DNA from: an uncultured Bacteroidales bacterium
Lineage (GTDB): Bacteria > Bacteroidota > Bacteroidia > Bacteroidales > Paludibacteraceae
NCBI GenBank assembly: GCA_946617165.1
Contig: CAMOJP010000002.1
Location: 1 to 61,742, forward strand
DNA length: 61,742 nucleotides
Direction: 5' to 3'
Positions 2 through 61,666 of the stretch are shown here, in pieces (position 1 is the stretch's first letter; the number at the start of each line of letters is the position of its first letter). The notes beneath the pieces are model-generated. The model had not been told where the DNA came from. It saw only the letters and a program-made list of their open reading frames with translations, and did not search any database. The translations under genes were made by a program, and so were the position numbers.

Positions 2-1840
2 ATTAACCGCGAGAAAGTGGATAAATGCGTGACTATAGGACCGGCAATCATGATGAAGTTCGTGGCACTGACGACCGCCAAATACAATATACCGACGGAA
101 GCCAGTCTGAATACCATTATGGTCGACGGAACGGGTATGTGTGGTGCATGTCGCGTGACCGTTGGCGGCAAGACGCGTTTCGTGTGCGTTGACGGACCCG
201 AGTTCGACGCTCACCAAGTGGACTGGGATGAGATGCTGACGCGTCTGCGTTCCTATAAACCCGAAGAAACAGCTGCTTTTGAGAAGTTTAAAGGATTAAT
301 GGCTGAGAGTAATGTTCTAAATACGCATACAAAGGAGGGGGATAGTTTGAAGGATGAAAGGTTGGAGATTACGGGTGAAGAAGAAGGGCGTGACGCCGCA
401 TGGCGTGTGGCACTTCGTCAGACACTTAAGCCCAAAGAGCGCGCAGCCATCGAGCGCTGTGTGATGCCCGAACTGGATCCCGTTTACCGCGCAACCACGA
501 TACACGAGGAAGTGAACCAAGGACTGACGCCTGAAATGGCACTACAGGAGTCCAAACGCTGTCTTGATTGTGCCAACCCGGGGTGCGTACAAGGCTGCCC
601 TGTCAATATTGACATCCCGGGCTTCATCAAACATATCGAGGCTGGTGATATTCAAGGCGCCTATCGTGTTATTAGCGCAAGCAGCTCGCTGCCCGCAGTC
701 TGCGGACGCGTATGCCCGCAAGAGAAACAATGCGAGGCGAAGTGTATTCACCACAAGATGAACTCCAAACCGGTTGCTATCGGCTATCTGGAACGCTTCG
801 TGGCTGACCATGCGGTAGTTGAAAGCGTGGAGTCGAGAGTCGATAGTCAAAAGTCGAAAGTAGGAGGTGCGGTGAAGATTGCGGTTGTGGGAAGTGGTCC
901 TGCAGGCCTCACCTTTGCGGGCGACATGGCTAAATACGGCTACCAAGTGACCGTTTTTGAGGCACTTCATGAAATAGGCGGCGTACTCAAATACGGTATT
1001 CCCGAGTTCCGTCTGCCCAATCGTATCGTAGATAAAGAGATTGACGGTCTGCGCAATCTGGGCGTCGAGTTCAAGAAAGATACAATTATCGGCAAGACCA
1101 TTACCGTCGAAGACCTTAAGGCGGAAGGCTATGCGGCAATCTTCGTAGGGTCGGGAGCCGGATTGCCACGTTTTATGAACATCCCCGGCGAGAACTTGAA
1201 CGGCGTACTGTCCTGCAACGAATACCTGACGCGTGTGAACCTGATGGATGCCTCGAACGAAGCCACCGATACACCGTTGTTGTACGGTAAGAACGTGATT
1301 GTTGTAGGTGGCGGCAACACGGCTATGGATGCCGTCCGTACCGCTAAACGCCTGGGAGCGGAACGGGCGACCATCGTCTATCGCCGTTCCGAAGAAGAGA
1401 TGCCCGCACGTGTGGAAGAAGTGAAACATGCCAAGGAAGAAGGCGTCGAGTTCATGACGCTGCATAACCCGATTGAGTATCATGCCGATGAGAACGGTCG
1501 TGTGTGCGAGGCTGTGCTTCAAGTGATGGAGTTGGGTGAACCCGACGAGAGCGGACGCCGCAGTCCGGTTCCTGTAGAAGGTAAGACGGTAACGGTATCG
1601 GCAGACCTTGTGATAGTCGCAGTCGGCGTAAGTCCTAATCCGCTTATCCCGAGCTCAGTGGAAGGACTGGATATTTCTAAAAAAGGAACCATTGTGGTGA
1701 GCGAAGATACTATGCAGTCAAACATTCCCGCCTTATTCGCAGGAGGGGACATCGTACGTGGTGGTGCAACAGTCATTCTAGCAATGTCTGACGGCCGTAA
1801 AGCAGCCGCTGCGATGCATGAATATCTGACAAAAAAGTGA
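2..1840 (+). CDS. Fused ferredoxin-NADP reductase / NADPH glutamate synthase-like flavoprotein (3' part, cut by window edge)
   Basis: The reading frame is open to the window edge, so the N-terminus (expected FAD/NAD-binding reductase domain) lies outside. What remains begins with the end of a PyrK/NfnA-like reductase carrying a 2Fe-2S motif (DGTGMCGACR, then CVDGP about 12 residues later). A GltD-like half follows, with cysteine clusters for 4Fe-4S centres (CLDCANPGCVQGCP and CGRVCPQEKQCEAKC), an FAD Rossmann motif (VGSGPAGLTFAG) and an NADPH motif (VVGGGNTAMDA). Bacteroidota commonly carry this fusion, annotated as dihydroorotate dehydrogenase B subunit/glutamate synthase. An NfnAB-like electron-bifurcating transhydrogenase is an equally good guess. 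Both inter-domain linkers look degenerate; one is encoded by a 7-bp tandem repeat at 831-865. The stop overlaps the miaB start by 4 bp. Confidence 0.85.
   Translation: MNREKVDKCVTIGPAIMMKFVALTTAKYNIPTEASLNTIMVDGTGMCGACRVTVGGKTRFVCVDGPEFDAHQVDWDEMLTRLRSYKPEETAAFEKFKGLMAESNVLNTHTKEGDSLKDERLEITGEEEGRDAAWRVALRQTLKPKERAAIERCVMPELDPVYRATTIHEEVNQGLTPEMALQESKRCLDCANPGCVQGCPVNIDIPGFIKHIEAGDIQGAYRVISASSSLPAVCGRVCPQEKQCEAKCIHHKMNSKPVAIGYLERFVADHAVVESVESRVDSQKSKVGGAVKIAVVGSGPAGLTFAGDMAKYGYQVTVFEALHEIGGVLKYGIPEFRLPNRIVDKEIDGLRNLGVEFKKDTIIGKTITVEDLKAEGYAAIFVGSGAGLPRFMNIPGENLNGVLSCNEYLTRVNLMDASNEATDTPLLYGKNVIVVGGGNTAMDAVRTAKRLGAERATIVYRRSEEEMPARVEEVKHAKEEGVEFMTLHNPIEYHADENGRVCEAVLQVMELGEPDESGRRSPVPVEGKTVTVSADLVIVAVGVSPNPLIPSSVEGLDISKKGTIVVSEDTMQSNIPALFAGGDIVRGGATVILAMSDGRKAAAAMHEYLTKK
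831..865 (+). repeat. 7-bp tandem repeat inside the flavoprotein linker
   Basis: Five consecutive heptamers: AGTCGAG, AGTCGAT, AGTCAAA, AGTCGAA and AGTAGGA. They code for the linker just before the FAD-binding motif of the glutamate synthase-like half. Seven is not a multiple of three, so the peptide itself is not periodic, which points to a DNA-level origin rather than protein selection. Confidence 0.75.
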
Positions 1841-58755: not shown

Positions 58756-59331
58756 CTATGCCAAAGCCTCTTCTGAGTTCTCTTCCCCTGAGGCTTCCTC
58801 TGCTGCAGGGGCTTCTGCCTCTGCTGCCTCTTTGGCTGCTTCTTGAGCTGCGGCTGCAAGTGCCTCACTCGCTGCCTGACGTTTCTTCAATACCTCGGCG
58901 GCTTTTACCTTGTTAGCCTCTACCTCTTGAGCAAATGCTGCTTTCTGAGCGGCTGCCTTCTTGTCGGCTTCTGCCTTCACAATCTTACCGGCTTTAGCTG
59001 CCTTCTCTGCCTTCCAGGCTGCAAAACGCTTCTCAGCCTCTTCTTGACTGAATGCACCCTTTGCTACACCGCCTTGCAAGTGCTTGCAAAGCAATACGCC
59101 TTCTTCAGACAAAAGGTGACGAGCCGTGTCGGTCGGTTGAGCTCCTACACCTACCCAATAAAGAGCACGCTCAAAATTGAGATTAATCGTTGCAGGATTG
59201 GTGTTGGGGTTGTAAGAGCCGATACGCTCAATAATCTTGCCGTCACGCGGCGAACGGCTGTCTGCTACTACAATGTGATAGTAAGCGTAGTCCTTGTGAC
59301 CATGACGAGCCAAACGAATTTTTGTTGCCAT
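58756..59331 (-). CDS. rpsP: 30S ribosomal protein S16 with long C-terminal extension
   Basis: Residues 1 to about 80 are the S16 core ([50 protein letters not shown]). The remaining 110 residues are an Ala/Glu/Lys-rich, probably helical tail ([18 protein letters not shown] and onward). Such tails are usual in S16 of this phylum. Its own strong promoter lies 130 bp upstream. Confidence 0.95.
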
Positions 59332-59464: not shown

Positions 59465-59540
59465 CAAAAGTACTACAATTATTCCATATACACAAATTTT
59501 TCAACAAAAAAATGTGGCAAATTGTTTTTTTCTATGTAAA
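59465..59540 (-). promoter_or_regulatory. rpsP promoter with extended upstream element
   Basis: Minus-strand TTTG (plus 59493-59496) and TACTTTTG (plus 59465-59472), spacer 20 bp. The whole 76-bp stretch, including an A/T-rich upstream part, is nearly identical to 61521-61597. The transcript carries a leader of about 130 nt. Confidence 0.85.
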
Positions 59541-59570
59541 ATGGTAACGCTATCAGCGGGCTGGTGCTAT

Positions 59571-60449
59571 TTATCGAAGCAAAAGAGCTGCAGAAACTAC
59601 CTGACCCGAATATTGATATATGATAGAGTCATGACGAATCATGTATGTCGTCGGCAGTGTGTGAGTAAGGCGATACATCGCAAATTGTGATACCTCGCGA
59701 ATCTCAAAAGTAGAATCAAAGAGCCTGTTAAATCGCTCTCTGGCAATAGTATCTTCTACAGCCAAACCGATAACCCTGTCTGCTACGCCCATCGGCTCAT
59801 ATTGATTGACATTGCCAATTGAGTTCTGGCAATGCGGACAACTATACGAAAATGCAAATACCAAATATGTGGAGTCCGGATGACTTGTGATATATTCGGA
59901 CAATGGGCTTCCCGCTAATGCTATAGGCTGAAAGGTGTTTTGTTTTTGCAGACATTTGGCACCGTGCAGCGAGAATCCGCACATAAACATAACGACAACC
60001 GATATAACCGCCATAAATACTATAGAATGAACAGTTATTGCCGTGCCTTTTTCTTGCGGACGGACAAGAGTCGGTACTAACATGCCAAGTAGAATGCCAT
60101 TTCGCGTAAAAGTCAACCAAGGTTTGGAGTTGAGCCATGTAAGCGGACCAAAACAACCGCAGTTGGTTATGCCGCGAGCAGTCACTCCGTATAAATAAAT
60201 TGACGAAACGACCAAAAGGAATATAGCCGTTGCCCATGAAATATGCTTGGGATAGAAATCAAAAACAAGCATTACACCCAAGAATATTTCAACGAAGATA
60301 ATAAGCGGTGCGGCGAATCCGAACCATGTGGCGCCGTATTCAGAGATAAGATCCGCAAAAGCGGCGGTGTCTATAGATTTAAGTAACCCCGATAGAAGAA
60401 AAACAAGCCCTACTAAGAAGCGGAATATTTTGGATAATTGTTGCGGCAT
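59571..60449 (-). CDS. DoxX/MauE-like membrane protein with C-terminal thioredoxin-like domain
   Basis: The N-terminal half has four hydrophobic segments (LVGLVFLLSGLLKSID, FAAPLIIFVEIFLGVMLVFD, and others) and the motif TNCGCFGPLTWLNSKPWLTF, as in MauE/DoxD proteins. The C-terminal periplasmic part has a thioredoxin-like FAFSYSCPHCQNS with a CPHC redox site. I use the ATG at 60449 because the frame's extra 18 residues lie within the upstream terminator. 292 residues. A role in periplasmic disulfide exchange is likely; the two cysteine-rich lipoproteins upstream are candidate substrates, but that is inference. Confidence 0.78.
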   Translation of the reverse strand: MPQQLSKIFRFLVGLVFLLSGLLKSIDTAAFADLISEYGATWFGFAAPLIIFVEIFLGVMLVFDFYPKHISWATAIFLLVVSSIYLYGVTARGITNCGCFGPLTWLNSKPWLTFTRNGILLGMLVPTLVRPQEKGTAITVHSIVFMAVISVVVMFMCGFSLHGAKCLQKQNTFQPIALAGSPLSEYITSHPDSTYLVFAFSYSCPHCQNSIGNVNQYEPMGVADRVIGLAVEDTIARERFNRLFDSTFEIREVSQFAMYRLTHTLPTTYMIRHDSIIYQYSGQVVSAALLLR

Positions 60450-60463
60450 AGGATTATAGAAAA

Positions 60464-60498
60464 GAAGGTGCACCTTCCAAAATAGTTGGCACACCTTC
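60464..60498 (-). terminator. Terminator after the small lipoprotein genes
   Basis: On the minus strand GAAGGTGTGCC (plus 60488-60498) pairs with GGTGCACCTTC (plus 60464-60474). That gives 11 bp, two of them G-U, with a 13-nt loop, followed by TTTTCT. On the plus strand the G-U pairs would be mismatches, so it serves minus-strand transcripts. Confidence 0.7.
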
Positions 60499-60511
60499 AA
60501 CAAGAGAAAAA

Positions 60512-60778
60512 TTATTTACAATTCGCACCTCGGATATCAGATCCTGCAAGATTTTTCATGGCCTGAGTTAGTTCTGAGCATGTATTCGCTCCATAATAAC
60601 TTTTCATGTGACTGTAATCGATGTACTGTGTGTACACATCGCCATCTTGGTCGTAGATGGTGCAATCACAACCCGTGATGGTTGTTGTGGCGGGCTCGTT
60701 TTTCTGACTACAAGCAACAAACATGGCGCTCACAGACATAGCTACAAGTGCACCAACTAAAAAGAATTTCTTTTTCAT
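60512..60778 (-). CDS. Small cysteine-rich lipoprotein, second of a tandem pair
   Basis: Start at 60778 gives a lipoprotein signal, MKKKFFLVGALVAMSVSAMF followed by VAC with C23 as the lipid anchor. The mature part has C37 and C39 in the motif CDC, then C67 and C87. 88 residues. C23, C37 and C39 have exactly the spacing of the upstream paralogue, and the signal peptides are nearly identical. A frame extending to 60877 is the antisense continuation of the upstream gene and is not used. I recognise no named family; with four free cysteines it could form two disulfides. Confidence 0.75.
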   Translation of the reverse strand: MKKKFFLVGALVAMSVSAMFVACSQKNEPATTTITGCDCTIYDQDGDVYTQYIDYSHMKSYYGANTCSELTQAMKNLAGSDIRGANCK

Positions 60779-60828: not shown

Positions 60829-61047
60829 TTACCAACAACGAACACCGTCTACTGCTATTGCATTCAATGCAGCACAACTGCTTACTCCTTCACTTGCGGG
60901 ATTGACATAGTGAGTCTCCTGTCCGTTTGTGCAAGTGCAAAGATTACTGTTGTTACTTTGATTGTTGTCGTCATTTTTACAACTAACGAACATCGCGCTC
61001 ATTGCAATCACAACAAACGCACTTACTAATAAGAATTTCTTTTTCAT
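60829..61047 (-). CDS. Small cysteine-rich lipoprotein, first of a tandem pair
   Basis: 72 residues. Lipoprotein signal MKKKFLLVSAFVVIAMSAMF followed by VSC with C23, then a short Asn/Asp-rich spacer, C37 and C39 (motif CTC), C58 (GVSSCAALN) and C71 next to the C-terminus. It is the paralogue of the following gene. Its last codons (GVRCW) form the 5' arm of a 7-bp stem (GGTGTTC/GAACACC, plus 60795-60801 with 60840-60846) reaching into the leader of the second gene. No promoter of its own is visible; transcription must come from 61521 through the structured region. Confidence 0.78.
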   Translation of the reverse strand: MKKKFLLVSAFVVIAMSAMFVSCKNDDNNQSNNSNLCTCTNGQETHYVNPASEGVSSCAALNAIAVDGVRCW

Positions 61048-61145
61048 TTTGTTAAAAGATTTAAATGTTTCCCTGCTCTGACGGCTTCGCAGGCCTTGCC
61101 CCGTTTGGAGAGTTCCGGTTCTCTATAACAAGGGACATAACAAAA

Positions 61146-61175
61146 AAGCGGTAACCTGTGTTAGTGTTCCCGCTT
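61146..61175 (-). terminator. Terminator-like hairpin, alternative to the one at 61168-61194
   Basis: On the minus strand AAGCGG-G-AAC pairs with GTT-A-CCGCTT (9 bp with one G-A mismatch, 10-nt loop), followed by TTTT so that six U end the transcript. The 5' arm is the same sequence used by the competing hairpin. Confidence 0.65.
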
Positions 61176-61194
61176 GTATAAAATAAAAGCGGGA
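61168..61194 (-). promoter_or_regulatory. Competing (antiterminator-like) hairpin
   Basis: On the minus strand TCCCGCTT (plus 61187-61194) pairs perfectly with AAGCGGGA (plus 61168-61175), 11-nt loop, no U-run after it. It uses the same AAGCGG as the terminator at 61146-61175, so only one of the two can form at a time. Confidence 0.65.
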
Positions 61195-61196
61195 CT

Positions 61197-61514
61197 GCAA
61201 TCTTGCTGTTCCGCGATTCGAGGCTCTGGTATTGCCTTTAATTCCAAACAACAACACTGAAGCCCACGCCGTATGTATAACTGAATATGGTGGTACGCGA
61301 GCGCGTACACCAAATATACACACCATGGACATCTTAGTGTCGCATTGCTTTGGAATTAAAATGAATTTACCAGATTCCGAATCGCCAAAACAAAGCGCTT
61401 AAGACGCCTTTTCAATATGTCCTATATCCCTCCCACCTCCAAGAACATACACCCTCGGCGTGGGCAAGATACTGCAAAACTTTCTTAGCCACAGGGGCAC
61501 GATTAATTCGTTTT
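61197..61514 (-). ncRNA. Highly structured RNA (unidentified; 6S-like rod or riboswitch-like leader)
   Basis: A transcript from the promoter at 61521 would contain: (1) a long-range closing stem, GCA-gt-ATCTTGC (plus 61464-61475) with GCAAGAT-TGC (plus 61197-61206); (2) a hairpin CCCACG..CCGAG/CTTGG..GTGGG around 61431-61464; and (3) a 173-nt rod, 61213-61385. The rod comprises an outer stem of 8 bp (61213-61220 with 61378-61385), CTGGTA/TACCAG, 12 perfect bp (61237-61248 with 61349-61360), CACT-g-AAG, a 7 + 8 bp stretch, and an apical GTACGC-GAGC-GCGTAC hairpin. At least three rod pairs are G-U on the minus strand and mismatches on the plus strand. It is not recognisable as tmRNA, RNase P or SRP RNA. 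Confidence 0.6.
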
Positions 61515-61520
61515 GCGCTG

Positions 61521-61597
61521 CAAAAATACTACTATTATTCCGTTTACACAAATTTTTCGACAAAAAAATGTGGCAAATTGATTTTTTTCTATGTAAA
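61521..61597 (-). promoter_or_regulatory. Strong promoter of the structured RNA / lipoprotein unit
   Basis: Minus-strand TTTG (plus 61549-61552) and TATTTTTG (plus 61521-61528), spacer 20 bp. The surrounding 77 bp differ from the rpsP promoter at about five positions plus one indel. Confidence 0.85.
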
Positions 61598-61666
61598 CTC
61601 CGAAAATGGGCAGAATTTGCATTATTTTCACTTTTTATTTGTGCATGGCTAAAAAAGTAGAAAGTT

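Follow-up and report, generated by a model that had tools for sequence, protein, structure and literature searches.

We consider it likely, on the basis of sequence comparison, that species across the order Bacteroidales have a leader RNA, absent from Rfam 15, which acts as a predicted transcription attenuator before scattered, mostly unrelated and often exported proteins. One copy of this structured RNA family of about 240 nt was found on the minus strand (61181-61423) of the window, that is, the whole stretch of 61,742 nucleotides that was analysed (contig CAMOJP010000002.1, from an uncultured Bacteroidales bacterium of family Paludibacteraceae). The copy belongs to a leader of about 470 nt at the window end, located 5' of two lipoprotein-like genes on the minus strand. 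The leader stretch had a predicted folding energy of -141.4 kcal/mol (z = -8.2), and none of 100 shuffles was equally stable. The features of the locus are as follows.

61549-61552, minus strand: predicted -33 promoter motif TTTG, 20 nt 5' of the -7 box (consensus from the accessible part of PMC7366714)
61521-61528, minus strand: -7 promoter box TATTTTTG (TAnnTTTG), with a predicted transcription start at about 61514
61181-61423, minus strand: conserved core of the structured RNA (match to model R1, 238.7 bits; alignment A2)
61401-61408, minus strand: 5' strand of helix D, GGCGTCTT, partner 61328-61335 (order-wide own versus swapped, p = 3e-10)
61385-61392, minus strand: 5' strand of helix C, TGTTTTGG, pseudoknot partner 61346-61353
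61378-61385, minus strand: 5' strand of helix A, GCGATTCG, partner 61213-61220
61363-61377, minus strand: hairpin H1, with loop UCUGGUA (61368-61374) contributing one side of the kissing loop
61352-61359, minus strand: 5' strand of helix B, partner 61238-61245
61337-61343, minus strand: segment 1, the 5' strand of helix F, GCGACAC
61271-61323, minus strand: long and variable hairpin E, 61315-61323 paired with 61271-61279
61244-61257, minus strand: segment 2, GTGTTGTTGTTTGG, partner of segment 1 (helix F) or of segment 3 (helix G, the antiterminator)
61221-61237, minus strand: hairpin H2, whose loop UACCAGA (61225-61231) kisses H1
61213-61220, minus strand: 3' strand of helix A, CGAATCGC, the final 2 nt being common to the base of T1
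61201-61214, minus strand: segment 3, GCGGAACAGCAAGA, common to antiterminator G and terminator T1
61189-61200, minus strand: segment 4, which pairs with segment 3 in T
61178-61214, minus strand: main terminator T1, stem 61189-61214, with an interrupted U-run, CTTTTATTTTAT, at 61178-61189
61168-61194, minus strand: accessory hairpin 4:5, which blocks both T1 and T2
61141-61175, minus strand: second terminator T2 with its U-run
61066-61131, minus strand: divergent DUF805/DUF805b-like cis element, sub-threshold (21.2 bits against a cut-off of 51.1), between T2 and the first lipoprotein-like gene
60829-61047, minus strand: first downstream gene, a 72-aa lipoprotein-like protein (only lipoprotein N-terminus matches, below cut-off)
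60512-60778, minus strand: second downstream gene, an 88-aa lipoprotein-like protein (only lipoprotein N-terminus matches, below cut-off)

A Pfam scan of the 72-aa and 88-aa proteins gave no match, and the two tRNAs found by a tRNA/tmRNA scan were both unrelated to the leader.

When 61130-61515 was used as a BLAST query, 62 of 200 genomes of family Paludibacteraceae, to which the window belongs, proved to contain related stretches. The most conserved 24-nt pattern matched at least 119 stretches of named genomes; the 80 matches listed were from Bacteroidales or Paludibacteraceae assemblies, including one 'Candidatus Colicola' (a genus of Paludibacteraceae), and the source names among them were in many cases ruminants or horse. 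The original prediction, made from the window sequence, had proposed a covariance-model search of Bacteroidales genomes. Model R1, which contains no pseudoknots, gave five clear copies in the genome that contains the window, as well as matches in 26 of 41 genomes of the family, with up to 16 matches per genome, counts which may include opposite-strand matches of one place, as in the window's own genome; 15 different places were listed for the genome with the maximum of 16 (G015). In the window, the opposite strand has a weak R1 match (plus strand, 61175-61415, 24.1 bits), presumably due to the palindromic helices. Across the order Bacteroidales, R1 matched 92 of 393 sampled genomes, representing 54 of 206 genera. 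In searches of more than 40 genomes few candidates were scored per genome (five in the search of 393), so that the copy numbers obtained are lower bounds. Across the class, matches were found in 9 of 295 genomes, five of them outside the order and with a shorter form (174-189 nt), and across the phylum in 3 of 198, all within the same class. When three copies from outside the order were read by eye, helices F, G and T could be drawn in one (L259) and F and G in another (L258), and G was not clear in the third (L257).

For the comparative analysis, 149 pattern occurrences in the family were reduced to 127 unique copies, of which 121 were aligned (L048, L049, L060, L087, L097 and L098 were excluded because the 5' anchor was missing); the columns of this alignment covary strongly. 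Alignment A2 consists of 74 representatives with pairwise identity of at most 87%. We also compiled an order-wide set of 91 matches from 90 loci, chosen from the high-scoring places listed. This set includes four copies from the window's genome, some copies from the same genus and one locus with two copies before one gene, and excludes L215 (short), L157, L165 and L166.

With a structure of 65 pairs on A2, 96.9% of the cells were paired, compared with 88.1% in shuffles and at most 43.3% in slid versions, and 425 cells showed double changes, compared with 131 and at most 114, respectively. The number of further pair types was a weaker sign (87 versus 82; 32 of 500 shuffles reached that count). 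Double changes occurred at all eight pairs of helix A and at all six counted pairs of helix B, in which 82% of the cells pair. The kissing loop between H1 and H2 (7 bp, UCUGGUA/UACCAGA) had standard pairs throughout (100% in 74 of 74 representatives), and other copies have, among others, UCUCGCA/UGCGAGA or UCUAGCA/UGCUAGA in its place. Helix C is pseudoknotted with helices A and B. In the order-wide set, the duplex energy of own versus swapped segments was -9.0 versus -1.5 kcal/mol for helix A and -11.1 versus -5.7 kcal/mol for the kissing loop (p <= 7e-9 for each). Covariation of the sequences thus supports the long-range helices, the kissing loop and the pseudoknot of the predicted fold. A 5' hairpin competing with helix D gave a suggestive but weak result in the same order-wide comparison (p = 0.014) and is not claimed here. 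The domain is closed by helix A, and not by the 10-bp stem that the original prediction had placed between 61197-61206 (gcaatcttgc) and 61464-61475 (gcaagatactgc). The latter can be drawn, with a 2-nt bulge, but is not conserved in relatives: the upstream 100 nt gave -11.37 kcal/mol with the own 3' segment and -11.28 kcal/mol with swapped ones (p = 0.9) in 72 of the 74 representatives, the remaining two having too little upstream sequence. A duplex as good as that of the window was present in 22 of these 72 copies, the window being counted.

At the 3' side of the core lies a chain of three covarying helices: F pairs segments 1 and 2, antiterminator G segments 2 and 3, and terminator T segments 3 and 4. 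They are located at 61189-61257 and 61337-61343 in the window, where their predicted energies were -10.5, -12.4 and -9.9 kcal/mol, respectively. Covariation of F and G was not measurable within the family alone (p = 0.33 and 0.97), in which there is too little variation, and we therefore used the order-wide set. For G we relied on the comparison of own and swapped segments, since the model misaligns segment 3 and the columns of alignment A4 were unusable. Own versus swapped energies were -9.5 versus -8.4 kcal/mol for F, -15.5 versus -12.0 for G and -10.0 versus -7.7 for T (p from 7e-9 to 5e-15), and six control segment pairs gave p > 0.08 in the same test, in which relatedness among copies was not fully removed. 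With one copy per genome (52 genomes), the own duplex was better than the mean of its swaps in 46 genomes for F, in 46 for G and in 44 for T. Helix G is usually 10-12 bp, and both sides change in step (GUUGCUCGUUC/GGACGAGUAAC, GUUGUUCAUUC/GGAUGAACAAC, AUUGCUUAUCC/GGAUGAGCGAU). It reached at least 8 bp in 89 of the 91 order-wide copies; of the two exceptions, the second copy of locus L202 and the copy of L236, one has no G and the other a short G only. The L202 copies are a tandem pair of the RNA before one gene (201-436 and 640-829, plus strand), the second without a recognisable helix G. The best predicted duplexes of G and T overlapped by at least 3 nt in all 91 copies, and those of F and G in 90. 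A U-run lies 3' of T in 91 of 91 order-wide copies and in 73 of 74 family representatives, the U-run itself being part of the model by which copies were picked. The three helices are mutually exclusive, yet all are kept by compensatory change, suggesting that both states are used. An antiterminator and a terminator that exclude each other and are both evolutionarily kept, followed by a U-run and a co-directional gene, are what is expected of an attenuator.

The switch had originally been placed in two hairpins further 3', at 61146-61194. Both are real. The first is the perfect 8-bp hairpin at 61168-61194 (TCCCGCTT/AAGCGGGA), identical to accessory hairpin 4:5. The second, at 61146-61175, is T2, in which AAGCGG/CCGCTT and AAC/GTT pair around one mismatch and are followed by the proposed U-run (61141-61147, six U, two of them inside the stem); the same AAGCGG is indeed used by both. 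The two hairpins are, however, an addition that a pattern match on 126 of the 127 family copies detected in 20, and not the core switch. This tandem module prolongs the chain by 4:5 and 5:6, and 14 of its 20 carriers have only 3-4 U after T1, whereas at most 4 U were found in 13 of the 106 others. The main terminator hairpin (61189-61214), the competing helix (61244-61257/61201-61212) and the upstream conserved core had been missed. The type of mechanism originally proposed, a large fold with an exclusive terminator and antiterminator, gains comparative support, although the parts named for it were wrong or secondary.

The accessible part of PMC7366714 gives TAnnTTTG as the -7 consensus of Bacteroidetes promoters, together with a -33 motif. 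A TAnnTTTG box was found within 130 nt upstream of 77 of the 91 copies in the order-wide set and of 62 of 72 in the family (15.4 and 10.1 in shuffles, respectively), and a -7 box with a -33 TTG in 39 of 91 and 55 of 72. In the 130 nt downstream, the box was present in only 12 of 91 and 10 of 72 copies, in agreement with the original statement that the two lipoprotein genes of the window have no promoter of their own. The next gene is on the same strand as the RNA in 89 of 91 order-wide copies, and 72 of these 89 genes begin 24-90 nt after the RNA. Of 114 family loci (13 of the 127 copies, with too little downstream DNA, were excluded), 98 have the next called gene on the strand of the RNA and 16 on the opposite strand; the gene upstream of the RNA is + in 63 loci and - in 47. 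This orientation, together with frequent boxes upstream and few downstream, suggests transcription through the RNA as the simplest route to the gene.

The downstream proteins are diverse. Riboswitches usually, though not obligatorily, precede genes of one metabolic pathway. Here, the 192 downstream proteins fell into 118 single-linkage clusters, which gives no support to a single downstream pathway and is more diversity than fits a classical riboswitch serving one pathway. In a simple home-made test that kept related copies, N-termini of the exported type were found in 63 of 92 family proteins, compared with 143 of 505 (12 of the 104 downstream proteins, shorter than 100 aa, were excluded), and in 44 of 87 order-wide proteins, a figure that has no background set. 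Recurring cargo includes proteins with BspA-like repeats and CsgG-like proteins; the Pfam scan of family cargo covered 74 of the 104 downstream proteins. Another recurrent cargo, seen downstream at L095, L142 and L245, consists of small Cys-rich proteins sharing a leader of the RREFFKxAAKAALPV type, which are possibly peptide natural products.

From these features we propose the following mechanism. Transcription would start near 61514, and the nascent RNA would fold into a compact core of helices A-E with the 7-bp kissing loop and pseudoknot C, after which F, G and T would compete in series. If F and T were formed, the RNA polymerase would halt and release about 335 nt of leader; if G were formed, full closure of T would be prevented and transcription would continue into the gene. 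G probably nucleates on the part of segment 2 left free by F, which it displaces, and would in turn give way to T. Given such a stepwise displacement from F through G to T, the choice should be kinetically controlled and tunable. In the window copy, the overlapping second terminator module (61141-61194) would add another decision step. We infer the stop at T, the read-through by G and the direction of the switch from the arrangement of the helices; the core would bias the choice, and a signal, for which a metabolite, an ion, a protein or a small RNA are candidates, would act on it. A further and more tentative proposal, which we regard as quite possible, is that the family is a new class of large regulatory RNA, in which a sensor fold some 240 nt long responds to one signal and, from as many as about 16 copies in a genome, controls a scattered regulon of surface, exported and accessory proteins through a strand-displacement transcription switch.

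That the RNA has a promoter motif and a terminator of its own and a large conserved fold, and that the downstream genes are diverse, would also be expected of a stand-alone, terminated noncoding RNA which acts in trans from many copies, the neighbouring gene being incidental. We consider this unlikely, since a close same-strand gene follows in 89 of 91 cases with few promoter boxes between, and since the covarying antiterminator G makes sense only if read-through matters. A 5' leader for mRNA protection or translation, with a constitutive terminator T that leaks in part and with G as a static tertiary contact, would fit the 6 of 20 family loci in which a DUF805b element separates the RNA from the gene, and also the fact that no signal is known for the leader; the order-wide preservation by compensatory change of F, G and T, which exclude one another, makes it very unlikely.

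It is highly improbable that the family is a mobile or repeat element whose palindromes only resemble a switch. There are many copies per genome with unrelated genes behind them, and some family copies sit at contig ends, as such an element would have it; but plasmid, phage and viral collections gave no match to the leader RNA, the covariation is seen helix by helix, and the position between a -7 box and a same-strand gene is fixed. Trp-type attenuators have the layout 1:2, 2:3, 3:4, which is also that of F, G and T, and a ribosome on a short ORF could in principle set the choice among them. The most regular ATG, the sole one examined, was absent from 40 of the 91 order-wide copies and from 11 of the 74 in the family, and its frame ran for 2-426 or 5-98 codons; a leader peptide is not supported on these grounds, and we give an attenuator of this kind hardly any probability. 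The attenuator that we favour shares with the trp type a chain of exclusive helices ending in an intrinsic terminator, but differs from it in the large folded core before the chain, in the dispersed cargo, and in that no conserved leader ORF was found at the ATG examined.

Read-through of leader terminators before surface genes is known for NusG paralogues such as UpxY or LoaP, and is the trait, here predicted, that the present leaders share with those systems. Dependence on a NusG paralogue is not supported: among 27 of the 41 family genomes, 10 of the 12 with the RNA and 11 of the 15 without it had a single NusG-domain match. No Rfam 15 family matched the core at its gathering cut-off, either in the window or in sets of 20, 20 and 7 related loci (47 in all). 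The mir-5014 model overlaps the core of the window at 61237-61360, with 21.2 bits against a cut-off of 101 (E = 0.087), and this match and the further sub-cut-off matches of a scan with relaxed E-value are chance-like. DUF805b RNA (RF02914) is likewise a 5' element of Bacteroidetes and occurs in the same leaders, above cut-off between the RNA and the gene, in the 6 of 20 loci mentioned above. Its model has 35 positions and its matches are all downstream of the core; identity of the leader RNA with DUF805b RNA was therefore rejected, and the latter is a separate element. Transcriptional riboswitches with kissing loops, such as the corrinoid class (PMC10653944), also have a large leader fold with a kissing loop 5' of the terminator/antiterminator; in contrast to them, the present core has no match to an Rfam riboswitch model and the cargo does not belong to a single pathway. 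A scan of human microbiomes (PMC8040213, accessible part) includes Bacteroidetes candidate RNAs outside Rfam 14.3. No 240-nt kissing-loop leader is described in that part, and the present family is set apart from those candidates by description, an overlap with the supplementary motifs being possible. Our literature search found no description of the leader RNA; it may have been listed earlier without a name.

Few regulatory RNA classes have to our knowledge been described for Bacteroidales, which are abundant in human and animal guts. The coupling of one fold to many unrelated, often exported proteins by a conserved leader with many copies per genome would bring a hidden regulon to light and open its signal to testing. 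Since segments 2 and 3 can be swapped from copy to copy, the covariation already provides mutants for such tests. If there is a ligand, the family would be a new riboswitch class, and if the more tentative proposal above is true, it would be an RNA-level global regulator that is absent from Rfam.

Several further observations concern the surroundings of the window copy. At the 5' end of the leader, a stretch of about 28 nt around TCGTGCCCCTGTGGCTAAGAA (61481-61508, minus strand) recurs alone in genomes of the same genus, and in the window's own genome copies of it lie near two contig ends. Immediately 3' of the lipoprotein-like pair is a gene for a MauE/DoxX-like protein (59571-60503, minus strand; a match to BT_3928 was below cut-off), which perhaps forms one operon with the two small lipoprotein-like genes. 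It is followed by a gene for ribosomal protein S16 with a long Ala/Lys/Glu-rich C-terminal extension (58756-59331, minus strand). The promoter block of the leader (61523-61603, minus strand) is by eye nearly identical to that upstream of the S16 gene (59466-59545, minus strand), suggesting a copied promoter region.
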